This document shows, one piece after another, positions 4,567 through 64,000 of a DNA stretch of 64,000 nt (position 1 is its first letter; each line of letters starts with the position of its first letter). The notes under the pieces are model-generated. The model saw only the letters and a list, made by a program, of their open reading frames with translations. It did not search any database and was not told the DNA's origin. Both the position numbers and the translations under genes were made by a program. Where the stretch lies: assembly GCA_017651625.1 (NCBI GenBank), contig JAGCCP010000043.1:1-64000 (forward strand). Reading direction: 5' to 3'. Origin of the DNA: Candidatus Ruminimicrobiellum bubulum (GTDB lineage Bacteria; Elusimicrobiota; Endomicrobiia; Endomicrobiales; Endomicrobiaceae).

Positions 4567-7500
4567 GTGTTTCAAAAAATTTTATCTTTATTTTTAACAA
4601 TATCGTTTTTAATAGTAACGGTAATTCCGCAAGGAGTTACCGCTACTAACATTATTAGCGCTTTTCAAAGTACACAAAACACCTCTTTGGAAATATTAGA
4701 AAAAGTTCCTAAAGAAATAGGTAAGATTTTTGAAACAAACATAAAAAAAGATTCCGATCCGAATGTCATATTAATTTACGATATGCATTGCCAACCGTAT
4801 GCACAAAACAATATATATTCGATAATAAACTATATCAATTCCAATTTTGAAATAGACAAAATATTTGTTGAAGGTGCACCAAACGGAAAAGTTGATACGT
4901 CGTCCATAAAAGATATCGATATTGGAACAAGAACAAAAATTTTAAGTAGCATGTTATCAAAAGGATATTTGAGCGGAACGGAACTTTATTCTTATTTATC
5001 ACAAAAAGACAATTTGTACGGAATAGAAGATTTAAATCTTTATCTGCAAACAGTAAAAGAATATGTTAATATTTTACCTTCTCAAAAGGAATACTTATCT
5101 TACATAAAAAAATCCGAAAAAGAATTAGTAAAAGCTAAACAAAACCTTTATACCGCAGACATGAAATTCTTTGAAAAACTATTTTTTGAAGACATAGACT
5201 ACGATTTAAAAGCCATTGCTAAAATAAAAAGATTTTTAACGGAAAACAATATCGATTTGTCGTCACAATATTCTAATATAGACATATATTTAAAAATCAA
5301 AGAATATGAACAAACAGACACAAAAAATTATTATAAAGATTTACAGGCTTTAATAAATATCTGCAAGGATAAGCTTCCTTTCAATATATATTCAAAATTA
5401 ATAACCAATCTTAAAGATAAACATATAGAAATACAATTGTCTCAAGTGTATGCAAGTATAAAACAATTGTTATCGGAACAAGAAATATCTAAATATAACT
5501 ATATAGAAAAAATTCAAGATAAACATTTGTTGTTATCGAGTTTCAATATTAAAAACTTTTTAAAAGAAAAAAAAGAGTTATATGACGAACTATCGAAAGA
5601 AATATTTAATACAGACTTATTATATAAAACAATATCGCAAACAAAATTTTTGTACACCTTAAAACAGTTTGTTCAACTAAAAATGAGTTACGATGATGTT
5701 AATGAATTGTTGTCCAATCCTGACAACATAAATAGTAATGAACAATTATCGGCCATTTTAAACAATGAACATATTAACAAATACTATGAAAATCATATAT
5801 TGAGAAACAATATATTTGCCCAAAACATTTTAAATACTATCGAAGAAGATACAACAAATATTGTGGTTGTAGGCGGTTTTCATAATGAACTTGAAACACT
5901 ATTAGATAAAAACAACATTAAATATATAAGTGTTTTCCCGAACGCACAAGCGGGAAATTATAAAATCTATAACAAAATAATGACAGATATTGCTTTATTA
6001 AACAATTGTTTGTCGGACGGTCTGTTGGTTTCTGTTTTATCGAACCAAAAACAAGAACAATTTTTGGTATCGTGGATAAAGGAACTACAAAATCAGGGAT
6101 TAAAAGATTCCGAAATTGTTAACATTATTAAAGATTGGGCTCAAAAACATCCGGAATTTTTTAATAACGGAACAGATGTTAAAGAGACAGTTTTAAAAAA
6201 TAATAAGTTAAGCATTAAAGGTTGGCTATTAAAAGCAAAAGATTTCTTGAAAAGAGATTTTTCGACATTTAAAACTGCTTTTCTATATAAATATGACGGA
6301 AATAATCCCAACGGACTTGACCAAACAACTGTTAATAAAATGGAATCTAATATCAGATATTTCCCTTTTATACAGTTCATGTTGGGATTTGATTTATACA
6401 GTTCATTTTCAATGGTATTCATGCAATCCAACGGGTACGGATTACCGTTTATTTCTTTAGTAATGTCGTTACTTGCACCGATATCTTTTGCAACATCGGG
6501 TATAGGCGGATTTATAGGAGACAAGTTCTCAAAGAGAACATTAATTATTTTATCTATTTTCGTTCATGCTATGGGTACAATAGCATTTACATTGTCGGGC
6601 CTTTCACCGGTATTACTCATAGCATCGCAAATACTTCCTACAATAGGAATTTCATTACTTTCGTTAACATTAAGTCCGTTCTTATATAAATCGTTAGATA
6701 ATCTCGGACAAAAAGATTCGTTCAAAGAAATTTACGGTTCCAACTTATCATTGTTCTGGATAATAATGTCGGTATCATCGTTACTTGGTGGAGCATTAGC
6801 CGCATTAACCGGTCAAATGGCTGTAATAGCAATTGCGGCAATTCCGGACATTGTTATTGCGGTAGGCGCATTGTTATTCACGCACGACGAAAATATAATT
6901 GCTTCAAACGAAGAAACAGTTGAAACGGAAAAAACAACTGCACAAAAGAAGAATATAAAAGATTTTGTTAAAGAATTCTTTGCTCCGGTAAAGAAGTTGT
7001 CATCGGACAAGAAGACGTTCTCTCTTGCTACATTAAATATTGTTGTAAACAACATGTTCTTTGTTGTATTGTGTTTCTTCTTACAACCTACATTAATGGC
7101 AACAGGTATAAATGTAGGACTTTTAGCACCTGTTTATTTTGCGGGAAACTTAATGCAATCTTTAGCATCGCATTTGATAAGCAAAGTAAGTTTTATTGTA
7201 GAAAACAAGACAGTAAGAACAATAACTTTTGCTGTATCCGCGGGACTGTTTGCTTTGTTCGCAGCAACGGGTCACCCGATATTCCTGGTTTCCGTATATG
7301 TTCTGATGAACTTCTGGCAAGGAACTTCTTCATTAACGGAAGTTTCCGCAGTATATAAAACTTTAGACGATAATATGAGATCTAAGTGGTTAGGATTTAA
7401 ATCCATGTTCGGTATGATAATTTCAACCATTACACAAATTTCAATAAGCGGATTACTTGCTATCGGCCTTTCGAACAACGTTATTATTGCCGCCGCAGTA

Positions 7501-7629
7501 GGTATTATTACAGGTGCATCGTTCATAATCCCGAAACTTATCGGCAGAACGGAAAAGAAAGAAAATGTTTTGAGCGAAGATTTGGATATAGGTATCGAAC
7601 AAATAAGAACAATGTTATCTTGCGCATAA
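4567..7629 (+). CDS. Giant exported protein 1: DLH/EGAP/GGFH module fused to an MFS-type transporter
   Basis: This 1020-residue protein starts at GTG 4567, eight bases after the nrdG stop. A Sec signal or anchor (MFQKILSLFLTISFLIVTV) needs this start. Residues about 65-470 are the shared module: D72-M73-H74, E102-G-A-P105, an S-x-G-x-LSG-x-E block near 130-140, a long helical stretch, then GGFH at 436-439. From about 593 to 990 there are about twelve hydrophobic segments resembling a major facilitator transporter, with the loop GFIGDKFSKRT typical of the MFS loop between helices 2 and 3. The transport substrate is unknown. Two paralogous modules occur in this window with different C-termini. 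I do not recognise a named family for the whole protein. Confidence 0.75.
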   Translation: MFQKILSLFLTISFLIVTVIPQGVTATNIISAFQSTQNTSLEILEKVPKEIGKIFETNIKKDSDPNVILIYDMHCQPYAQNNIYSIINYINSNFEIDKIFVEGAPNGKVDTSSIKDIDIGTRTKILSSMLSKGYLSGTELYSYLSQKDNLYGIEDLNLYLQTVKEYVNILPSQKEYLSYIKKSEKELVKAKQNLYTADMKFFEKLFFEDIDYDLKAIAKIKRFLTENNIDLSSQYSNIDIYLKIKEYEQTDTKNYYKDLQALINICKDKLPFNIYSKLITNLKDKHIEIQLSQVYASIKQLLSEQEISKYNYIEKIQDKHLLLSSFNIKNFLKEKKELYDELSKEIFNTDLLYKTISQTKFLYTLKQFVQLKMSYDDVNELLSNPDNINSNEQLSAILNNEHINKYYENHILRNNIFAQNILNTIEEDTTNIVVVGGFHNELETLLDKNNIKYISVFPNAQAGNYKIYNKIMTDIALLNNCLSDGLLVSVLSNQKQEQFLVSWIKELQNQGLKDSEIVNIIKDWAQKHPEFFNNGTDVKETVLKNNKLSIKGWLLKAKDFLKRDFSTFKTAFLYKYDGNNPNGLDQTTVNKMESNIRYFPFIQFMLGFDLYSSFSMVFMQSNGYGLPFISLVMSLLAPISFATSGIGGFIGDKFSKRTLIILSIFVHAMGTIAFTLSGLSPVLLIASQILPTIGISLLSLTLSPFLYKSLDNLGQKDSFKEIYGSNLSLFWIIMSVSSLLGGALAALTGQMAVIAIAAIPDIVIAVGALLFTHDENIIASNEETVETEKTTAQKKNIKDFVKEFFAPVKKLSSDKKTFSLATLNIVVNNMFFVVLCFFLQPTLMATGINVGLLAPVYFAGNLMQSLASHLISKVSFIVENKTVRTITFAVSAGLFALFAATGHPIFLVSVYVLMNFWQGTSSLTEVSAVYKTLDDNMRSKWLGFKSMFGMIISTITQISISGLLAIGLSNNVIIAAAVGIITGASFIIPKLIGRTEKKENVLSEDLDIGIEQIRTMLSCA

Positions 7630-19038: not shown

Positions 19039-22000
19039 TTATGCCGCCGACAAAATAGCTTTAATATTTTGTATCTCTTCACCATTCGTCAATATTTGTG
19101 CAATATTAACTTCCGGTACATCTATAGCAAGCAATTGCAATAAATCTGCTAATGCCAACGCTTTATCTTGAGGTTTAGTTTCAGAATTATTCACAGTCTC
19201 GAATAGTATATTTATTTGTTCTCTTAAATGACGATTGCTGTCTGTATCGGACAAACCGTCAATTTCTACACCCGCAACTTGTTCCAAAGCTTTTATATAA
19301 GGAACCTCTTCTTCTCTATAAAGTTCTTCTACTTCTACACCGGATTCAAAACACAACAACCTTGCTTCAACAAGTGCCAAAGCATAATTTTCAAAATCGT
19401 CCGTATTGGAATATTCTTTTTTAACATATTTTTTAAATTCAGAAGTTTCGAGAATACCTTGTATTATAGCACCGAACTGTTTTAAAACAATTTGTCCTTT
19501 TTGTTCATTTTTATAGTTGATTAACACATTTAACAGTTCACCTTTTACTATAGGGGTTTCGGCAAGTTTTATTTCTCTTGTTGCACCCGATAAAGATTTA
19601 TAACTTACGGAAACATTTAGTGCTTCTTCCAGTAATTTATTATCAACAGATTCTCCTTTTCTTATTGCCGAAAGCAACTTATAGAAAATGTTTATATTTT
19701 CTCCTTGCACATAATATCCTTTTTCTGCAGCATCGAGTCTGCCTTTATCCACAGCCTCCGTTAAAGTGGCAGCAATACGACTTCTGTTACCAAGCCTTGC
19801 ACGTAAAAATTTTACCGGATTAAAACTAAAACCGTCATCAGAATGTTCGGCAAAATCTACAAGCCAACCCGGCATTATAATTGTTTGTGCTTTTTCAAAT
19901 CTCTTTATCACATCTGCTACATCCGACGGTATTATACTATCGGGAGATATTGCGTTCTTATCCACATAAAACAATATTGTTGCATCTTCCGGATAAGTAC
20001 GTTTATCATTCATATCCGATAACATAACATTTACTATATCTTCGTTTTTGAAGTTAAAATCCGACATTTTATTTTCTGTATCAAACTGAACACCGATATA
20101 ACCTGAACGAGTTAAAACATTTAACGCTTTTTCAATATTTTGTACCGATGTTTCAACGTTCTGCACTACAGCAACATCTTTTGTATCAATTTTTTCAAAT
20201 CGTAAAATCACACCTTCAACAGCAACGAATTCATTTTCATCTAAAATATATTTTGAAGCAGACATCTTTTCGATTAAAGAAGAAACATCGGAATTCATAT
20301 CTGCATTTGTAATTTCATGAGTAAGTATTACCCTAATATTATTATTATGAGCCTGTGCAACCAAAGACCTTAAGGTATCTGTGTCCAAAAGACTTGAAAC
20401 CACTATTGTATCGAAATTTTTATCTGCGGTTTCGGCAACTCTGTTCCGTATAGATTCAGCAGAAGAAAGTTCATCTTCAAAAATATAATCCATATTTACA
20501 GGCATTTTTTTCATCGCTTTTACACGTTCTTCGCTTCTTGCAGATTGTAATGCTATTTCAATATTTTCATATATCGGCATTTCGGGATTTACCGAAATTG
20601 TTTTATCTAATAAACGTCCAAGCAAAACTTTCCCTCTTTCGTCTTCTTCAACTCTTTCTTCAAATATAATACGTCTTGTACCGTTATTACTTAAAGCATC
20701 GAAAATATCGGTAGAGTCGGCATTTGAAAGAATTGAAGTAAAATATACATCAACATTTTCGTCAACTGACATTTTTACCGTTGTAAACCCAAGAGAATCA
20801 TCTCGTTTTACATTTTCCGGAAATAGATTATCATCAACATAGTTTGCTATTACCGCAACTTTAACACCCATAGCGGATAGTTCTTCTGCTCTGCGACGAA
20901 CAAAGCCGTTATATTCGGATGTGTTTATTACATAAGTTGTTGTATCAAATTTTTTTATTTGTCTTTTTATTGTAAATATTCTTACATGATTTTTTATTTG
21001 TTCAATAAAAGAAAAAATGAAAGCTTCAACATTATTAAGCATATGTAAAACAGTGTTTACAATTTTCCCGGTTAAAGTTGTACCGCCTGCAAGAGCAGTG
21101 GCTTTTATTATAAATGCCAATCTGTTTTCCATAGAAAGACGTAAATCTTTGTTCCCGTTTATATATTGTCTGTGTTTTTCGAGGAATTCTTTTTGAGTCA
21201 TTGTTCCGCTTACAATCGACATCATATCACCGAGCTCTGAAAAAGGGGCAACAAAAATTGAATAAATTGTAATTAATGCATTTTTCAAAGGTGCCGATTT
21301 TATGTTTTCAATAAAATTCGGATATGATACTGTAAGAGCAGTTTTTAAAGGTATATCTTCACCTTCTTGCTCATCTCTTTTATATAAGATGACAGCTTCA
21401 CCCGGCGAAACAACATATATATTATCGTAGACTTCGTTTCCTTGTTCTGAAAGGTCCAAATCTCTTGTAGAACAATAAACTCGCCATGGACCTGTTCTTA
21501 CGGAAGAAGGAAGAGTCCAAACAATAGGAGTGTCCGACATGTTCATTAAAACAACAGTATCGTCATCATAAATACCATAATCTTGCAGATGGTCTCCGGA
21601 AATCATAAAACCGAAATGTTGTTCTTGCCAATCTTTAGGTTGTGCTTCTCCGCCTTCCGGATGTAACCATGCGATATCTTTATCACCATGTTCATTTACC
21701 ACTTTACCCGATAACGGTTTATATTTGGAACTATCTAAAGAAGGATGTTCCGAACGATATTTTGCAAGTGCACCCATATATTTTGATAACTGTGCTTGAT
21801 CATCCCAACGCATATTTAAGTATTCGTTACTTTGATTATACGGATTATTGTTTCCATGCTGTGTTCTTAAAAATTCGTCTCCCATTGAAAACATTATGGG
21901 ACCTTGGCAAAAAGATAAAATGGTCATGGCTGCAGCAACATATTCGGCTATATGTTCATTATCGTACCCCAATCCCATACCATATTCGTTAGGTCCGTCG

Positions 22001-25000
22001 TTATTACCCCATCCGTTATCAAAATTGTCTTTTTCACGTACAGCCAAAAGTTGAGCATAGGGATGGCCATCGTGTGAATCCATATAATAAACGTAAGGTT
22101 GTGCTCTGCTGCCTATTCCGTTAGGATCGGCAATAGCCGAAGCAAGTGCTCCCGGACCTGAACGGCCCATTATAAAATTACGTATTGCTTCTCTTATTCC
22201 GCTGTTCCACGTAAAAATATCTCCGCGGAAATCGTCCGTATAATAAGAACGTACACCTTTTGCACCGCCTGTTGCCATATACCCTTCCGCAACTACATCT
22301 ATACCTTCTTTTTCTTTTATATCCGAAAGTATCGGGCTATCGTAAAATATTTGCATATATTCGGATGTCGGATCAAATTCTCTTGTTTCCTCGTTTCTTG
22401 CCGCAGCTGCCATTAAATCGTGTCGGAACAAACGTACACCTAAAAGAGCATACATCTCTTTATATTTTGTCATCATATTAAGTACTACCGGATTGTTGGT
22501 ATTGAAAGCATTTCCGCAACCGGAAGCATCATCGTAACCGGCTTTATCGTAAGGATTAAGCAAATAGTAAGTAGAATTATCTAAAAGCCTGTAACATAAA
22601 GACGGATCTGTTTGGGCAGAACCTTCTCCGGTATGGTTATCAACGACATCCATTCCGAAACGGATACCCTGCTCACTTAACTTTCCTATAGTTTCTTTTA
22701 AAGTTATTAGATCTTCTTGCGGTCTTAACGGATCACCGAAATCGGGATTTAAAGCAAAAAATGTTACGGTTTGATAACCCGAATTGTTTCTTAATCCCCT
22801 TTCATGAGAATACGGATCGTTTGCATCGGATTGTATCGGTTGAACCTCAACTGTATTTATCCCTATTGTTTTTAAATGTTCAATAACTTCATCATCGGCA
22901 AGCCCCTGCAATCTGCCGCGTTTTTCTTGCGGTAAATCTTCTTTTAAAGCAGTAAAACCTCCGACATGCAACTCATAAATAACCGGTCTTTGATTATCTA
23001 CCAAAACAGGCGGTTTTGCAGTTTCGACGTCATCTAATTTCCTTAAATCTACAACTATCGATTTAGGTACGAAAGGTGCAGAATCGCGAGTGTCGGGTTT
23101 ATACAAATTCCCTTTTTCACATACTATTAAAGAATCGTCAAAAACAAAACGGGACTCTTGTTGAAACGAAAAAGGATCTACGGCAAGTTTGTTGGGATTA
23201 AAGTAATGTCCGTTTTGCGGTTCGTACGGACCGTATGCACGGAAACCGTATCTCTGTCCGGGTTTTATATCCGGGAGATAAATGTTCCAAACATCGTTTT
23301 CGCCCTTAACCATTTCGTATCTTGTTTCGTTGCCTTGCTCATCAAAAAGACACAATTCAATTTTTTCCGCATTTTTTGAATATACTCCGAAATTTGTACC
23401 GACTCCATCGTATATAGCACCAAGACCGTTTGATTTCATTAATTCATAAACACTGTTTGTTATTTTTTGTGCTCTGTGTTTTCTTTTTGAAAGTTGAACT
23501 TCAGAACGAGTCATTACAGCTTTTGCATTGTGCAACATATGCAAAAAATAGTTGACGGTTTTGCCTAAAACATTGTTCCCGCCGAAAACTATCGTTATTT
23601 CGATTATAGAAGCAAGAGCATGTTCCATAATCATTCTTGTTTTTAAGTCACCGTTTATATATTGTTCATGTTTTTCAAGAAAATCTTTCTGAGTGATTGT
23701 ACCGTTTATTATAGATGTCATATCGCTAAGTTCTATAAAAGGCGAAACAAAAATAGAATGTAAATTTTCTATTGCTATAGCTAAAGGTTTAAACTTTATT
23801 TTTGCCGCAAGAGACGATTTGTAAATTGAAAGTAGTGGTTTACCCTCGTTATTTTCTATTAAATAAATTTTATTTTCTATATATTTTCTCTGTTCCAAAG
23901 AAAATTTGCCTGCAGTATTTTTTAACAAAGATATTGCCTGTGTATCCAAATAGTATTTGTTCAAAGTATCAAATACGGCATCGATTTCATCGTTACCGAC
24001 ATTGTGTCTTACAGATAAAATTAAAAAGTCTATTATTGCATTTTGAACTGTAACAATATCACTAACTTCTGTTGTCGGAATAGAAACCGGCTTTTCATCT
24101 TTGGATGTTTCGTTTTCGTAAAATGCTTTTCCTTTTTTAATTACAAGTTCTTGTCCGTTAACATTTATGCGAATAATATCCGACTCTATTTCTATACTTT
24201 TTATCTCTGCAACCTTTTTCCCGTAACCGGAATTTATAACATCTTCTATGACTTTTACATCAAGTATTTTGTTTGCTTGTAATTTCCTTAACGTATCTTC
24301 CGAAAAAATTACGGTAAACACGGCTTTAATAGGATCTACAGATAAAGGTGACAATTCAAATACAGCGGATTTTTTAATAAAATCGAAAGCATTTCTTTCA
24401 AACATTGCCGCTTGTCGTTCAATTATCGAATTATACAAATTGTCATATTCGGAAATCTTTCCGCTTGTTTTCGGGGTAATAACCACATAACTTTGTTTTT
24501 TATTTTCAAGAATTTTTGAAATGCCTGCCGTATGGAAACCACCGGAAATTATAACATCTATTTTTTTAGCATTTTTTAGCATATCTTCAACGTTTCCGCG
24601 ACGTACAGGATTAACATTTGCCGTATTTTTATCATTATCCGTAACAATGGATTTAACAAAATATTCGTCACGATCTGTATTTGTTGAATAAAATTCTTCG
24701 GCAGTATCTATTGCATTTTTTAAATCGTTAAGATTAGCGGAAATAATATATTTATCTAATATATGTTCAAACTCGCTAAAAGCATAGTTATAGTTTTTAT
24801 ATTCCCTATAGGTAATTTTGTTTTGTAACAAAGATTCAAAAACAGAAACAAATCTTTCCATAAACAAAATTTCACGTTCACTTAAATTTTTTGATGATTT
24901 GTTTCTCAATTCATTTACAAACGTTTCTTCCTGACGAACAAAATCGATAGGATTTACTTTTGCATTAAGAAGAATATATGAAGCAAAAAGGTTTATTTGC

Positions 25001-25950
25001 GGGAACTTTTCATAATCCGATATTTTTTGTAAATGTTTATATAATTCGAGATAAAAAACATTTTTTGTTTCCGGAGATTTTGATAGCTCTACAAGGGTTT
25101 TATATTCTGTAAAAGTTAACTTTTCTTTCAACAAACCAATGGCGGTTGCAGCTTCTTTTGCCACGGTATCGGTATTGATTTTTTTTCTCAGTGAAAGGAT
25201 TTGTTTAAATATAGATAATTGCGGATATTTATCTATATTTATACCGTACTTATAAGCAAACTTAAATAAAGTTTTAAAATATTTTGTTGCGGTAATTTCA
25301 TTTTTTTTATACTTTTTTGACAATGCGAGGATTTTTTTGTTATCTGTGCTATAGTTTCTTTGCCCGAGAATTTCTATTTGTTGGCGTAACGGTAAAATTT
25401 GTGCTTCAACGACAGTTTGGTTTTTCTTCATTTCTCCGAGTCTTACGAGATTATCTGAATATGCATCGAAATTTTCTACACCTTTTAAAATATCCGGTTT
25501 GTTTTCGGCAACAGAAAAATATTCCGCGCCGGACAGTTCTCCGCTCGATATCATTGTTTCAACAAACGCTTTTTTTGTTGAATTGTCGGAAATATCGGAA
25601 AGCCATTTTGTACTTAAATTACCTTTCGGTGCACCTTCAACATAAACGTTGGATATACCGTAATTTTTATCTAAACAAGAAAGAATTGAAGCTGTGTTTT
25701 TTTGAGTTTGCGGATCTCCATGCAAATCTTGAATTTGAACTATAACTTTTGATGTTGAAAAATCCGCAGAGTTTGTAACTTTTCCAAGATTAAACGGAAC
25801 AACATTTTCAATCGTAGGATAAACAGAATTTAACGATGAAGTTGTCGGTGCGGCAAAACCGGAAATACCCGATGACGACAGAATTAATCCTATCGTCACA
25901 AAAACAGATATATATTTATTTAGAAAAATTTTATTTATCTTTCCAGTCAT
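19039..25950 (-). CDS. Giant exported protein 2 (2303 aa): DLH/EGAP/GGFH module plus GlgX-like debranching enzyme
   Basis: A Sec signal peptide (about 1-34, ending GISGFAA) leads into the shared module with D75-L76-H77, E105-G-A-P108 and GGFH 470-473. A segment of about 80 residues (about 727-812) recurs at about 1560-1642. Between the two copies is a complete isoamylase/GlgX-type unit: CBM48-like start (GVGTNFGVYSKNAEKI), then GH13 motifs GMDVVDNHT, FRHDLMAAAAR (nucleophile Asp), VVAEGY (acid Glu), MDSHDGHP (third Asp) and MGDEFLRTQ. So the catalytic residues are kept. Residues 1640-2303 match nothing I recognise. It probably cleaves alpha-1,6 glucan branches outside the cytoplasm; the module's role is unknown. 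Confidence 0.8.
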   Translation of the reverse strand: MTGKINKIFLNKYISVFVTIGLILSSSGISGFAAPTTSSLNSVYPTIENVVPFNLGKVTNSADFSTSKVIVQIQDLHGDPQTQKNTASILSCLDKNYGISNVYVEGAPKGNLSTKWLSDISDNSTKKAFVETMISSGELSGAEYFSVAENKPDILKGVENFDAYSDNLVRLGEMKKNQTVVEAQILPLRQQIEILGQRNYSTDNKKILALSKKYKKNEITATKYFKTLFKFAYKYGINIDKYPQLSIFKQILSLRKKINTDTVAKEAATAIGLLKEKLTFTEYKTLVELSKSPETKNVFYLELYKHLQKISDYEKFPQINLFASYILLNAKVNPIDFVRQEETFVNELRNKSSKNLSEREILFMERFVSVFESLLQNKITYREYKNYNYAFSEFEHILDKYIISANLNDLKNAIDTAEEFYSTNTDRDEYFVKSIVTDNDKNTANVNPVRRGNVEDMLKNAKKIDVIISGGFHTAGISKILENKKQSYVVITPKTSGKISEYDNLYNSIIERQAAMFERNAFDFIKKSAVFELSPLSVDPIKAVFTVIFSEDTLRKLQANKILDVKVIEDVINSGYGKKVAEIKSIEIESDIIRINVNGQELVIKKGKAFYENETSKDEKPVSIPTTEVSDIVTVQNAIIDFLILSVRHNVGNDEIDAVFDTLNKYYLDTQAISLLKNTAGKFSLEQRKYIENKIYLIENNEGKPLLSIYKSSLAAKIKFKPLAIAIENLHSIFVSPFIELSDMTSIINGTITQKDFLEKHEQYINGDLKTRMIMEHALASIIEITIVFGGNNVLGKTVNYFLHMLHNAKAVMTRSEVQLSKRKHRAQKITNSVYELMKSNGLGAIYDGVGTNFGVYSKNAEKIELCLFDEQGNETRYEMVKGENDVWNIYLPDIKPGQRYGFRAYGPYEPQNGHYFNPNKLAVDPFSFQQESRFVFDDSLIVCEKGNLYKPDTRDSAPFVPKSIVVDLRKLDDVETAKPPVLVDNQRPVIYELHVGGFTALKEDLPQEKRGRLQGLADDEVIEHLKTIGINTVEVQPIQSDANDPYSHERGLRNNSGYQTVTFFALNPDFGDPLRPQEDLITLKETIGKLSEQGIRFGMDVVDNHTGEGSAQTDPSLCYRLLDNSTYYLLNPYDKAGYDDASGCGNAFNTNNPVVLNMMTKYKEMYALLGVRLFRHDLMAAAARNEETREFDPTSEYMQIFYDSPILSDIKEKEGIDVVAEGYMATGGAKGVRSYYTDDFRGDIFTWNSGIREAIRNFIMGRSGPGALASAIADPNGIGSRAQPYVYYMDSHDGHPYAQLLAVREKDNFDNGWGNNDGPNEYGMGLGYDNEHIAEYVAAAMTILSFCQGPIMFSMGDEFLRTQHGNNNPYNQSNEYLNMRWDDQAQLSKYMGALAKYRSEHPSLDSSKYKPLSGKVVNEHGDKDIAWLHPEGGEAQPKDWQEQHFGFMISGDHLQDYGIYDDDTVVLMNMSDTPIVWTLPSSVRTGPWRVYCSTRDLDLSEQGNEVYDNIYVVSPGEAVILYKRDEQEGEDIPLKTALTVSYPNFIENIKSAPLKNALITIYSIFVAPFSELGDMMSIVSGTMTQKEFLEKHRQYINGNKDLRLSMENRLAFIIKATALAGGTTLTGKIVNTVLHMLNNVEAFIFSFIEQIKNHVRIFTIKRQIKKFDTTTYVINTSEYNGFVRRRAEELSAMGVKVAVIANYVDDNLFPENVKRDDSLGFTTVKMSVDENVDVYFTSILSNADSTDIFDALSNNGTRRIIFEERVEEDERGKVLLGRLLDKTISVNPEMPIYENIEIALQSARSEERVKAMKKMPVNMDYIFEDELSSAESIRNRVAETADKNFDTIVVSSLLDTDTLRSLVAQAHNNNIRVILTHEITNADMNSDVSSLIEKMSASKYILDENEFVAVEGVILRFEKIDTKDVAVVQNVETSVQNIEKALNVLTRSGYIGVQFDTENKMSDFNFKNEDIVNVMLSDMNDKRTYPEDATILFYVDKNAISPDSIIPSDVADVIKRFEKAQTIIMPGWLVDFAEHSDDGFSFNPVKFLRARLGNRSRIAATLTEAVDKGRLDAAEKGYYVQGENINIFYKLLSAIRKGESVDNKLLEEALNVSVSYKSLSGATREIKLAETPIVKGELLNVLINYKNEQKGQIVLKQFGAIIQGILETSEFKKYVKKEYSNTDDFENYALALVEARLLCFESGVEVEELYREEEVPYIKALEQVAGVEIDGLSDTDSNRHLREQINILFETVNNSETKPQDKALALADLLQLLAIDVPEVNIAQILTNGEEIQNIKAILSAA
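21025..21270 (-). repeat. Internal duplicated segment of giant protein 2, second copy
   Basis: This encodes about residues 1560-1642, including ELGDMMSIVSGTMTQKEFL and TGKIVNTVLHMLNNVEAF. It aligns over about 80 residues with the copy at 23515-23770, both having an acidic/hydrophobic start, a KHxQYINGN turn and two hydrophobic helices. It lies directly after the debranching domain. Confidence 0.8.
23515..23770 (-). repeat. Internal duplicated segment of giant protein 2, first copy
   Basis: This encodes about residues 727-812, including ELSDMTSIINGTITQKDFL and LGKTVNYFLHMLHNAKAV. It precedes the debranching domain and is the partner of 21025-21270. The catalytic unit therefore appears inserted within, or flanked by duplication of, this helical segment. 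Confidence 0.8.
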
Positions 25951-58803: not shown

Positions 58804-61800
58804 ATGAGAGTTTTATCTGTTTTTACACTAGTTTGTTTTCTTTTAACTAATGTATTGGGCGGCGCCTTTGCCAATACAGCGGTATTTCCTTTGCCATATA
58901 AATATGTTGACAATGAAGTTATTACAAAAAGTGAAAAACTGGCTCAATATGGGCAAATAACAGAAAATATTTATAAAAAAGATACTCCGCTGGTTGTGGT
59001 AATACACGATTTACACAACAATTCAAAAGTTCAACAAAATATAGAACAAATCATAAATTTTATTTATCAAAATTCAAAAATAAATAAAATAATAATAGAA
59101 GGTGCTCCAAACAAACAAATATCCACGCAACTGTTTTCTTCAATACAAAATAAACAATTTATCAATAACATAACAAACGACTTATTGTCCACAGGAAAAA
59201 TTTCCGGTGCTGAATCTTTTACGGTAAAGAATGATATACATAATTTATACGGACTTGAAAACTGGGAAATATATAGCAAAAACATTGAACAGAATTTATT
59301 GTTGAAAAACAAATATTTGCAAGAAACAGACAAAATTTATGATTCTTTTGTAAAAAGCAGAATATATTTTTCAAAACCGCAACTGTTTTCCTTGTTTTCA
59401 CAAGATACCGATTTTGAACAACAAATTACAAATTTATACGAATTTTGTACTAAGAATAATATCGATTTAAGTCTTTATTCGGAAATTAACAAATTTATTG
59501 CCGTAACAAAATATAAAAATAAAAAAAATATATCCAAAGATTTATCTCGTTTATTCAATGATATAAAAAGTAAAATTCCCTACCAAAATTATATGCAAAT
59601 TACTGCTCTTTTGAAAAACATGGATGTAAACGGTAAAGAAAAATTAAATTTAATATTTAATATTATAAAAAACAGTTCACCGGAAACATTGTTAAAATAT
59701 GAACCCCTCGTCTTATACTTTAATAACATTGAAACAAGAGCCGCTGTTAACTTTTATGCATTAATGCAACAAACGGAAACCCTTGAAAATTTTATCTTGG
59801 ATAATTTTGTTGATTATAATGAAAAAGAATTAATATTAGTGGATAAATTTATATATATCTTGTCGGAATATGCAAGGTTGTCCATATCGTACAATCAATA
59901 CAAATATTTTGAACAAAACAAAGACTATTTATATAACATATCAATAAAATATTTGGATAATCAATCACTAAAGATAATAAACGATATTTTAAAAGATGAA
60001 GATTTGAAAAATTATCATTTAACAAACGAACAAAGAAACAAAATTTTTTACAGCAATATAAAATCGTTAATTAATATTTCCGATAATGATAATATAGAAG
60101 TAACGGAAACAAATATAATAGAAAATTTAAGAAACATTGATTCCGTAAACATTGTTGTTGTAGGCGGCTTTCATAATGAACTTACAGACATATTGAAACA
60201 TCAAAACGTTTCCGTGTTGTCTGTTATACCGAGAGTTGAACAATTAACCGATTTTGATAACGAACTTGTAAGAACGGAAAATGTTGTTTACAAAAATGCT
60301 TTGGCACCGCCTACTGTTCTGGTACAGGCTGATGTTTCTACAATTGCTTCCATAATAAAAAAATGGTCCGGTTCCATGACAACTTCCGGTATAGATTTTT
60401 TCCGACAAAAGGAGGCAATCAGAAAATGGTTATCGGATAACAAAATAGATTTGGAATTTGAAATTGTAAACGAAACAATGTATTTAGGTTCCGTTCCGAT
60501 AGATGATATATTAAATCCAAAAACAAGATATAAAAAAGAAGATAACAGCCGTAAAAAAAGTACTGTTTCCAATATTGTGTGGAAGTTGCACGACATATAT
60601 TCAAATATAAAAGTTTTTATATCACAAAAAACAAAAAGTATAAGACAACTGTTTAGCGGAATAAACACATTTACCGACATTTCTTCATTATCTTCACAAT
60701 ATATATCAAGAAGATTATTGAACGAAAGAATAATAAAAAATGAGTATCAAAGAACACTTAACAGTTTAAACCAAAAAATGCCGGACGTTATAGTAATTTC
60801 CGTAAGCAGTGAACAAGATAAAACTTTTTGTGAACAAGTATTGGCAGATATCAAAACTCATCCGAGTTTTCAAAACACACAAATACATTACATAATGAAA
60901 GAACAAGCCGGAACCGCCGACGGTTTTATAAAATCAATGGAATATTTAAAATCTTCGAATTTCGGTAAAAGTTTTAAAGATTTAACTTCGGTAGTAATAG
61001 ATATAGATACAAACGAAAAAGAAAACATAGCAAGAAAAGACCTTCCTATCAAATTTAACGGAAGAAATATAACTCCTTTGGAATTGGCGGTACTCAACGG
61101 TATAAGAGCATGTCATAAATTTAAAACAGGTGGCGGTATTGCGGTTATAGATCCGCAAAGTATATATATAGGAAACATGCTTCCGACGGAAGATATTACT
61201 TTTATATCGTCGGCGGTTAATATGGAAGAAATTCAACATCACAGACATTCGTTAATAATTAAAGATTACCCAAGCACTTTGGAAGAAATTTATTACGGTT
61301 TTACCCCTGAAAACATTTCCGATGTTGTTGAAAGAAAAGGTATAGAACACAGAAACTTTTATAATTTCGATAATAACAGAATGAGACAGTTCGAAATTGC
61401 TACCGGTAATGTTCTTATAAGTTTTGACGATGAAACAAAATATAAAGAATTTTTTAATTTTATATCGGAATACGGAAACAGCCTTAACAATTTGTCGGAA
61501 AAAACACATTTGTTTCAACATATATTTGTTCCGTTTATAAGACTTAAAAACAAACAAAATGTAAGTTCATATTTTGCAAAAACGGCATCCGCAAAAGACA
61601 GAGATTTGTTTATTGATTTCGCCGATAGAATTGGTAATTATTATCAAAACAGCAGTTTAATCCAAGAAATTAAGTTCGGAGTATACCATCAATCGAAATC
61701 TTTATACAGCAGAAATTTTACAAGGCAGCTCATTAATAAATTGTCCGACATTTTTAAATCAAAACAATATCAACATATAAAACAAGATACAAAATCCGCA

Positions 61801-64000
61801 ATAAAGCAAAAACAAGTTGTGATAACTGAAACTTTTGACGAAGATAATGCATTATCAAGAGCATATAAAATATTATCGCAAATTCAGGATAAACGATTGG
61901 ATTCATCTGCGGATTATGAGCAGGTATACGATACTTTAATAGAAATTTTCAGAACTACTCCCGCTCAAAACGAATTATATAATTTAGAAAACAAAAATAC
62001 GGCAAAACTTTACAGGTATATATCCGATATCATAAGTAACACTATTGCCCAAATTAACGACGAAAAAATTTTAAATAAAAACAGAATAGAACAAACGTAT
62101 TTAGAGAATTTAAAAATAAGTTTCTTGTCTATGCAGCATTACACCATAGAATATTTGAGATTGTTGGATTATACGACGAATTTGGCCACTTTGGGAAGTT
62201 ATATATTTCCCAAAAGTTCTTTTTTTGAAAAATCCAAACTAATGCCGTTAAACAGACTTATTTTCGGGTTCACAAGAGGTATAAAAAAATCCAAACAAAA
62301 TGTAAGAGAACAACTTGCAACGGTATATTCATCGGGAAACTTTTTAATAGATTCGTTATATTCTTTTCCGGTACTTAAAAACGATATAGAATCGTTTATA
62401 ACAAATATTGAAAACCCTAAAGAAAAAACATCCGTAGGTATACAGAAAGAATGGGGAAGCAGAAGAGCCGTTCAAAGATTTTTGTCGCTATCTATCGGGT
62501 TACAGTCTTTCGCAACCTCAATAATAGCGGCATTAAATACATCATCGTTTACTGTTGCAACAATTTCGGCAGCGGTAATTTCGTTAATGAGCGGATTAGG
62601 CCTTTCAATTTTCTTACACAGGGCAGGAATCGGTATAGGGCAAAATGATAAGTTTTATAACGAAAAGAAAAAAGAAATAGAAGATGAGTTGGACGGTCAA
62701 AGTTCCATAAAAGAGTCTATGGACTTTTTTGCTTACGATATAAATAAAATTTCACAGTTGGAAAAATTTTATGCTAAGATGGCAAAGAATGCATCAAAAG
62801 AGAATAAAGAATTGTTGGATTCAACATTAACATTATTGCATCAATATAAAGATAACTGTGATTTAAGATTAATAAGTCCTATTTTAAATAACAGCAGGCA
62901 ACTTTATATATTACTTGCCGGAAGATCCGATTTGCAGTTGCAATTATTACAGTTTATAGATTATTTAGAGAAATTCAACGTTGAAGATGAACCGAAAGAA
63001 TATAAAGGTATAAGATACGGATTTGTTTCCGATATGGAAATTACGGAACAAGAAACCAACGGACATTTAAAAAATTGGTTTGAAATTTTAAAAACAAATT
63101 CTATTACCAAAGAGTCGATAGACAACATAATAACCAATGCTACCGAAATAATAGAAAAAACAAATTTTAATCCTACCGTATTAAAAGGAACAAATAAAGA
63201 TGTTATTATATCTCAATTACAAGATTTCATTTCTTTTTATAACGATACGATAAAATTGTATTCGGCACTGACAAAACAGGAGCAGGATAAGTTAAGACCG
63301 GAAATAGAAATATTGGAAAAGATGGGAGAATATGCCATTCAATATTATAAAGCATTAAATTATTTGGTAAGTTTGGAAATATTGTACGGATACAGAATTT
63401 CCAAAGGAAACAAACTGTACTTTTTGGAACAAATAGGGTTAATGTCCGTTGTAAGAAATGTATACGGTATACAAACCGGAATATTTTTATCAAAGAGAAA
63501 ATTCTTAAAATCTATTGCAGCGGTAAAAAATATAGGTAACGAAATAATAAACGGTTTCTATGACAATAAAATCGAAGAAACAGTGGATTCGTTTTTTAAA
63601 GAAAAAGAAAGTCCTGATTATTTTTATTTAGGTATTATAGAAAGTTGGAAAGACAGAAAAATGTTAGCAAGGTTTTTACCGTTGGTTATATTTATACAAA
63701 AAGTTGCAACATCCGTAATTTCAGGCTCGTTTTATTTACACAATTTTGTTATATCGTTTTTTACCGGTGTAGGCTTAACGGTAAGTTTGCATTGGCTTTC
63801 CATTATGATAGGATTTTTTAAAACTTTAATTATAAGTAAAAAAAATGTATCCGGGAAAGAAGAAAGAAATACAATAGAAACAAACAGACAATTGCTGTTA
63901 CAAAAACATATAGACGAATTGGCAAAAGTTCCGTACGGACAAATGCCCGATTTAATAATTATGGTCGGTTCTAAAAACAGGCACACGGCAACATCGTTAA
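58804..64000 (+). CDS. Giant exported protein 3 (at least 1732 aa, open at window end): DLH/EGAP/GGFH module, NTP-transferase-like region, membrane hairpins
   Basis: The frame is open from ATG 58804 to the last base with no stop. A signal peptide (MRVLSVFTLVCFLLTNVLGGAFA) leads into the shared module with D69-L70-H71, E99-G-A-P102 and GGFH 454-457. At about 660-860 a sequence starting PDVIVISVSS contains EQAGTADGFIKS (700-711), resembling the GTAD loop of sugar nucleotidyltransferases, and VVIDIDTNE; catalysis is not shown. Two similar membrane hairpins follow, at about 1220-1275 and 1620-1680, both beginning RFLxLxI. Near the end another PDLIIMVGSK starts, like residue 660. The C-terminus, and total length, lie outside the window. 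Function unknown. Confidence 0.8.
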   Translation, partial: MRVLSVFTLVCFLLTNVLGGAFANTAVFPLPYKYVDNEVITKSEKLAQYGQITENIYKKDTPLVVVIHDLHNNSKVQQNIEQIINFIYQNSKINKIIIEGAPNKQISTQLFSSIQNKQFINNITNDLLSTGKISGAESFTVKNDIHNLYGLENWEIYSKNIEQNLLLKNKYLQETDKIYDSFVKSRIYFSKPQLFSLFSQDTDFEQQITNLYEFCTKNNIDLSLYSEINKFIAVTKYKNKKNISKDLSRLFNDIKSKIPYQNYMQITALLKNMDVNGKEKLNLIFNIIKNSSPETLLKYEPLVLYFNNIETRAAVNFYALMQQTETLENFILDNFVDYNEKELILVDKFIYILSEYARLSISYNQYKYFEQNKDYLYNISIKYLDNQSLKIINDILKDEDLKNYHLTNEQRNKIFYSNIKSLINISDNDNIEVTETNIIENLRNIDSVNIVVVGGFHNELTDILKHQNVSVLSVIPRVEQLTDFDNELVRTENVVYKNALAPPTVLVQADVSTIASIIKKWSGSMTTSGIDFFRQKEAIRKWLSDNKIDLEFEIVNETMYLGSVPIDDILNPKTRYKKEDNSRKKSTVSNIVWKLHDIYSNIKVFISQKTKSIRQLFSGINTFTDISSLSSQYISRRLLNERIIKNEYQRTLNSLNQKMPDVIVISVSSEQDKTFCEQVLADIKTHPSFQNTQIHYIMKEQAGTADGFIKSMEYLKSSNFGKSFKDLTSVVIDIDTNEKENIARKDLPIKFNGRNITPLELAVLNGIRACHKFKTGGGIAVIDPQSIYIGNMLPTEDITFISSAVNMEEIQHHRHSLIIKDYPSTLEEIYYGFTPENISDVVERKGIEHRNFYNFDNNRMRQFEIATGNVLISFDDETKYKEFFNFISEYGNSLNNLSEKTHLFQHIFVPFIRLKNKQNVSSYFAKTASAKDRDLFIDFADRIGNYYQNSSLIQEIKFGVYHQSKSLYSRNFTRQLINKLSDIFKSKQYQHIKQDTKSAIKQKQVVITETFDEDNALSRAYKILSQIQDKRLDSSADYEQVYDTLIEIFRTTPAQNELYNLENKNTAKLYRYISDIISNTIAQINDEKILNKNRIEQTYLENLKISFLSMQHYTIEYLRLLDYTTNLATLGSYIFPKSSFFEKSKLMPLNRLIFGFTRGIKKSKQNVREQLATVYSSGNFLIDSLYSFPVLKNDIESFITNIENPKEKTSVGIQKEWGSRRAVQRFLSLSIGLQSFATSIIAALNTSSFTVATISAAVISLMSGLGLSIFLHRAGIGIGQNDKFYNEKKKEIEDELDGQSSIKESMDFFAYDINKISQLEKFYAKMAKNASKENKELLDSTLTLLHQYKDNCDLRLISPILNNSRQLYILLAGRSDLQLQLLQFIDYLEKFNVEDEPKEYKGIRYGFVSDMEITEQETNGHLKNWFEILKTNSITKESIDNIITNATEIIEKTNFNPTVLKGTNKDVIISQLQDFISFYNDTIKLYSALTKQEQDKLRPEIEILEKMGEYAIQYYKALNYLVSLEILYGYRISKGNKLYFLEQIGLMSVVRNVYGIQTGIFLSKRKFLKSIAAVKNIGNEIINGFYDNKIEETVDSFFKEKESPDYFYLGIIESWKDRKMLARFLPLVIFIQKVATSVISGSFYLHNFVISFFTGVGLTVSLHWLSIMIGFFKTLIISKKNVSGKEERNTIETNRQLLLQKHIDELAKVPYGQMPDLIIMVGSKNRHTATSL

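Follow-up and report, generated by a model that had tools for sequence, protein, structure and literature searches.

Architecture of the giant protein

The window analysed here is a stretch of 64,000 nucleotides from Candidatus Ruminimicrobiellum bubulum, a gut bacterium of rumen type in the family Endomicrobiaceae (phylum Elusimicrobiota). On its reverse strand, at positions 19039-25950, lies a genuine open reading frame for a giant mosaic protein of 2303 residues. Full-length orthologues of about 80% identity are present in three other species (genomes G003, G010 and G001), and fragments are found in two more (G002 and G007). From its sequence, the product is apparently an exported mosaic which carries a starch/glycogen-debranching enzyme inside.

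The protein begins with a signal-peptide-like N-terminus (residues 1-33; 25852-25950), recognised by hydropathy and by its sequence features: a lysine-rich n-region, the hydrophobic core ISVFVTIGLILS and an AxA-like cleavage site of the form G-F-A/A-P. All 15 giant proteins of the same genome to which the signal-peptide sequence rule was applied passed it, and Sec export of the 2303-residue protein is predicted. The N-terminus is followed by the domain that defines the family, hereafter the N-domain (residues 40-515; 24406-25833), and by a linker region (residues 516-718; 23797-24405) which is conserved in the orthologues and has no Pfam match above cut-off. The central part consists of segment A (residues 719-812; 23515-23796), the debranching unit with its CBM48, catalytic and C-terminal β domains (residues 838-1530; 21361-23439) and segment B (residues 1551-1644; 21019-21300). 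The C-terminal region (residues 1645-2303; 19042-21018) has no Pfam match and closes with the tail KAILSAA (19042-19062), a type of ending common to the giants of this family. Its last ~145 residues (2160-2303) are weakly paralogous (E = 1e-3) to another giant, which carries phosphoglucose isomerase (PGI) and phosphoglucomutase (PGM) domains.

The embedded debranching enzyme

The NCBIfam model for GlgX, TIGR02100, matches residues 841-1523 over positions 5-686 of its 688 (E = 4e-130). The score of 435 bits is below the curated equivalog cut-off of 640.9 bits, a value reached by no match among 84 Endomicrobiales genomes. Pfam places a CBM_48 domain at residues 843-928 (E = 2e-17), also matches α-amylase, and detects no further carbohydrate-binding module in the 2303 residues. 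The solved GlgX structures 7u39, 2vnc and 2wsk align across the entire unit. Regions I-IV of the GH13 family are complete: DVVDNH at 1101-1106 (region I, with NH at 1105-1106), R1176-x-D1178, E1222 and H1293-D1294, so that the catalytic set consists of D1178, E1222 and D1294. These invariant residues are kept in all seven genomes with an embedded enzyme. The sequence-only reading had described a debranching unit with all its catalytic motifs in an exported-type mosaic; the motifs are indeed present, and export is predicted by sequence features.

The surroundings of the catalytic residues differ from those of ordinary GlgX in the same seven genomes. DNH replaces the usual YNH, FRHDLM replaces FRFDLA, AEGYM replaces AEPWD and SHDGH replaces HDGF. 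The retained residues suggest that the chemistry should be preserved. Since the rim of the active site is altered, the specificity may differ from that of ordinary GlgX. Judged by profile and motifs, the enzyme is a GH13 debranching enzyme of the isoamylase/GlgX-like type, but no GlgX equivalog, and is predicted to hydrolyze α-1,6 branches. It shares with GlgX and isoamylases the combination of CBM48 and GH13, the D/E/D triad and alignment over the full length, whereas it departs from them by the sub-cut-off score, the changed active-site neighbours and its position within an exported-type giant.

Between species, most intervals of 60 residues within the GH13 unit show 80-100% identity, compared with ~65-85% for the remaining protein. 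As the enzyme is the most conserved part, selection is strongest on it. The unit is also the sole GlgX-type enzyme of its own genome in the TIGR02100 search. Among the 84 Endomicrobiales genomes, such enzymes occur only within giants (seven genomes), apart from a partial, weak match in genome G042. Free-standing GlgX proteins of ~700-770 residues are found in distant Elusimicrobiota families, with ~36% identity. A 647-residue CBM48 protein on contig C9 was considered as a second GlgX and discarded, as it has no TIGR02100 match at 1e-20; it is probably a branching enzyme. The search for viral relatives of the embedded enzyme found none.

The flanking segments

Segments A and B, of 94 residues each, share 54% identity in protein and 62% in DNA. 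A search of the own genome relates them with E = 1.1e-28, and their Smith-Waterman score is 253, whereas 1000 shuffles reached no more than 57. The proposal that two homologous segments flank the enzyme is borne out by these values. There is no third copy in the protein or in the genome. Both segments are predicted to be helical; AlphaFold, run with only two sequences, returned a pLDDT of 46, too low for the model to be informative. Pfam has no match for them, even at E = 10. The H-x-x-x-N motif and the membrane regions of three sibling giants (L056, L057 and L058) had hinted at remnants of a CPBP/CAAX-type membrane protease (Rce1-like, PrsW); this candidate was rejected, with no Pfam match and pairwise E-values of only 0.02-0.06.

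Both segments are present in all six genomes of the same genus that carry the enzyme. Segment A is 70-80% identical across species, while A and B are 48-54% identical to each other. Segment A is therefore closer to the A of other species than to its own partner, and the duplication predates the species.

A homologue from another genus (genome G033) is instructive in this respect. Its 1468 residues comprise a signal peptide, an N-domain of 26% identity and the enzyme at 72% identity, and it lacks both segments as well as the C-terminal ~640 residues. The same enzyme thus follows a divergent N-domain without A or B, which suggests that it behaves as cargo. It had also been suggested that the segments form a scaffold which presents the enzyme. 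A homologue without any duplicated segment had been named as the finding that would speak against this view, and the G033 protein is such a homologue: the scaffold is not needed by the enzyme.

How the arrangement arose is a separate matter, compatible with each of the functional readings discussed below. One origin would be the insertion of a GH13 cassette into a segment of an older giant, with duplication of that segment. The paralogous flanks fit this scenario, as does genome G033, which holds the cassette without segments and, in a different giant, a weak relative of a single segment (E = 6e-5). The latter is compatible with insertion and duplication in the lineage of the window and does not demonstrate them. 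The GC content of the enzyme region is also higher, 39.5% versus ~31%, but this difference may reflect amino-acid composition. On the other side, A and B have already diverged to the identity given above. Furthermore, the suggested search for homologues that lack the GH13 insert succeeded in part: among the 84 genomes of the order it recovered the enzyme without segments, but the pre-insertion form, a single segment without enzyme, was absent save for the one weak match. We regard this origin as possible, though on balance doubtful. The segments themselves are best explained as a helical spacer that was duplicated in this lineage and lies on either side of the enzyme; the duplication is older than the species, and the spacer is not essential to enzyme function.

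A family of giants with a common N-domain and tail

Membership in a large family defined by the N-domain and a C-terminal tail is a more important fact about the protein than the segment duplication. The N-domain (residues ~40-515) occurs in at least 17 open reading frames of 1000-6700 residues in the same genome. It is present in 69 of 341 Elusimicrobiota genomes, in frames of up to 11,814 residues. Its best 80 relatives among 84,980 species genomes all belong to Elusimicrobiota and almost all to Endomicrobiales; these 80 come from Endomicrobium, Endomicrobiellum, Ruminimicrobiellum, Proruminimicrobium and metagenome-assembled genomes of rumen and termite gut. In the genome studied here, ~19 giants account for about 8.6% of the sequence. 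Complete members are best explained as a signal peptide, an N-domain of ~480 residues, a variable cargo and, at the C-terminus, a short tail of the form I/M-L-x-A-A.

Two more members lie on the forward strand of the window. The first (4567-7629) has 1020 residues, fuses the N-domain to an MFS-transporter-like domain and ends with the tail MLSCA. The second (58804-64000) is a frame of 2815 residues that runs off the window; it carries the N-domain and the tail ILACA.

By sequence and profile, the N-domain has no significant match in Pfam or the PDB. AlphaFold models it with a pLDDT of 91.3 and a pTM of 0.87 as an α/β fold with a helical insert. Its motifs follow the order DLH...E-G...GGFH, and the invariant residues include D75, H77, Q83, E105, G106, R427 and GGxH at 470-473; they look like a catalytic set. 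The top Foldseek match in the PDB is the erythromycin esterase EreC. The likeness to the erythromycin-esterase-like fold (EreC, 6xcs; HopBA1, 5t09), which would make the N-domain a candidate for the erythromycin-esterase/Tiki/ChaN-like superfamily, consists of this match and of a motif order which appears to be of the His/Glu/His type, whereas the match itself is not significant (E = 0.31, TM 0.18).

Among fold matches of the N-domain model in BFVD, uncharacterised proteins of protist-infecting giant viruses rank high (Fadolivirus with E = 6e-3, Hokovirus, Hyperionvirus), with low TM-scores. Separately, one contig of a viral collection, IMGVR_UViG_3300045144_000334, encodes a relative of the N-domain (22% identity, E = 2e-25); the contig may be a piece of a bacterial genome that was misbinned. 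A viral origin was considered and set aside, given this single weak relative from a viral contig and no viral relative of the enzyme.

The tail is a short ending which fits the pattern [IVML][ILMFV]x[ASC][ASG], with KAILSAA of the 2303-residue protein among the matches. Endings of the types ILSAA, MLAAA, ILAAA, MLASA and ILACA close all 15 giants of the genome whose C-terminus lies inside a contig. They are absent from all 40 other proteins of the window, and they are found on 13 of 16 closed giant C-termini from other genera and families. When the corresponding DNA pattern was run blindly over the genome, it returned ten sites. Seven are known giant ends, two end further long frames of at least 1539 and at least 3868 residues (both cut by contig ends), and the tenth contains an internal stop. 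With these two new long frames the prediction held. The tail may act as a sorting, processing or degradation signal. Being short, common and missing from neighbouring proteins, it is directly testable as a signal for sorting or processing. The literature searched holds no published account of it.

Most of the ~45 genomes of the reduced intracellular, Endomicrobiellum-like group (g8) have no N-domain match. One genome of this group, G064, contains an N-domain copy with five internal stops (contig C20, 17207-18775), suggesting decay of the giant family in intracellular lineages.

Cargo of the sibling giants

One sibling, L052 (contig C54, 253300-263600), is a predicted-exported protein of 3299 residues with a complete PGI (2.6e-170) and a four-domain phosphoglucomutase. 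Both PGI signatures and the phosphoglucomutase motifs TASHNP and DVDGDR are intact. A standalone PGI gene adjoins it at C54:263969, with 48% identity to the embedded PGI, and three other PGM/PMM genes are present besides the embedded PGM. Since ordinary PGI and PGM genes exist, the copies in the giant are extra. PGIs embedded in giants group across several genera into a single clade with a support of 0.994, from which every standalone PGI is separate; they therefore represent an old, maintained lineage of putatively exported copies. Recent capture from the adjacent PGI gene was rejected in view of this multi-genus clade.

Other siblings carry pyruvate-phosphate dikinase (PPDK; L056) and adenosine deaminase (L055), and HD, cytidine deaminase and metallophosphatase domains are found in further members. 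In most siblings, Pfam recognises no enzyme. Membrane regions were noted in L056 (860-1060 aa), L057 (1500-1740 aa) and L058 (790-990 and 2880-3120 aa). They show EExxxR, FxxxH and HxxxN-like motifs reminiscent of CPBP/PrsW proteins, with weak Pfam values (E 0.01-0.3), and could be processing proteases. A 3236-residue giant from another family of the class (genome G048, contig C16) has a weak glycogen-phosphorylase-like match (E = 1e-7).

Functional interpretation

We favour, with somewhat better than even confidence, the view that the protein is an exported carrier whose cargo, an intact GH13 enzyme of the isoamylase/GlgX type, acts on α-glucan beyond the bacterial cytoplasm. The proposed sequence of events begins with the giant, which would leave the cytoplasm by Sec-type export. 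The debranching domain would then cut α-1,6 branches in glycogen, in amylopectin or in the limit dextrins of either. Candidate sites for this reaction are the periplasm, the cell surface and the protist host or prey, and the glucan could be of storage or dietary origin. Together with PGI, PGM, PPDK and adenosine deaminase, the debranching enzyme resembles part of a second, exported kit for carbohydrate metabolism. Several points count against the favoured view: the sugar phosphates on which PGI and PGM depend are rare outside cells, the sub-cut-off score and altered active-site neighbours described above set the enzyme apart, the fold matches of the N-domain are not significant, and most siblings have no enzyme that Pfam recognises. 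A broader version extends it to a so far undescribed export system of Elusimicrobiota, in which Sec-exported giants marked by N-domain and tail ship spare debranching enzyme, PGM, PGI and PPDK to function extracellularly, with the inside or the surface of protist hosts as the probable site. This extension is tentative, and we hold it as rather improbable in its full form.

Rumen ciliates store amylopectin-like granules. A host-directed use of the giants would fit such a store: the proteins would deliver metabolic enzymes into the protist host or its vacuole, where host glucan would be converted to sugar phosphate. The cargo includes debranching enzyme, PGM and PGI, and enzymes that act on sugar phosphates would be of use only in places that contain phosphorylated sugars, so that host-directed use would explain their presence. 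The lineage is protist-associated, and for its members in the rumen a life alongside ciliates is presumed (PMC11257099). A precedent exists in Chlamydia trachomatis, which secretes GlgX and the phosphoglucomutase CT295 (PMC4829429, PMC9251005). In Chlamydia, a debranching enzyme and a phosphoglucomutase thus do their work outside the cytoplasm of the bacterium, as is predicted for the giants. In contrast to the separate chlamydial proteins with their type III signals, the enzymes here sit in giant mosaics with Sec-type signal peptides and a common tail. No delivery system was identified, and the signal peptides point to Sec rather than type III. Moreover, the reduced intracellular genomes mostly have no giants or decayed copies, the opposite of what this reading would lead one to expect. 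We consider host delivery unlikely. If true, exported spare glycogen and sugar-phosphate enzymes would constitute a second, independent case of Chlamydia-like use of host glycogen, in gut bacteria associated with protists.

An equally unlikely reading assigns the protein to the surface or periplasm as a large, cell-bound enzyme for free dietary starch or glycogen, much like multidomain amylases and pullulanases elsewhere and directed at no host. A single debranching enzyme with a signal peptide in a rumen bacterium agrees with this, as does the 878-residue phosphorylase gene kept in the genome. Yet such a role leaves the PGI, PGM, PPDK and adenosine deaminase siblings unexplained, and CBM48 is the only carbohydrate-binding module.

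In the portions of the surveys available, Elusimicrobiota are reported as enriched in huge proteins given no functional assignment (PMC11573180), and giant open reading frames of Omnitrophota are proposed as coats or adhesins (PMC10066038). The same phylum is thus rich in huge proteins, and giant frames occur in host-associated bacteria; the N-domain, the tail and the metabolic-enzyme cargo are not described in those portions. The words 'giant' and 'glycogen' are absent from the 2024 Endomicrobia genome paper, and we found no Endomicrobia paper mentioning proteins of the giant family. Within the literature searched, it appears to be new to define the family through its N-domain, its tail and its metabolic cargo. 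These common features and the recognisable enzymes turn the giants into a testable family, some of whose members carry normally intracellular enzymes, including those acting on sugar phosphates. The Omnitrophota proposal and the altered active-site rim might also suggest that these giants form a coat and that the enzyme folds have been reused in it, without catalysis, as adhesins, spacers or decoys, but this is improbable, as the catalytic residues are intact in all seven genomes, conservation is strongest in the enzyme, and the active-site motifs of the embedded PGI and PGM are likewise preserved.
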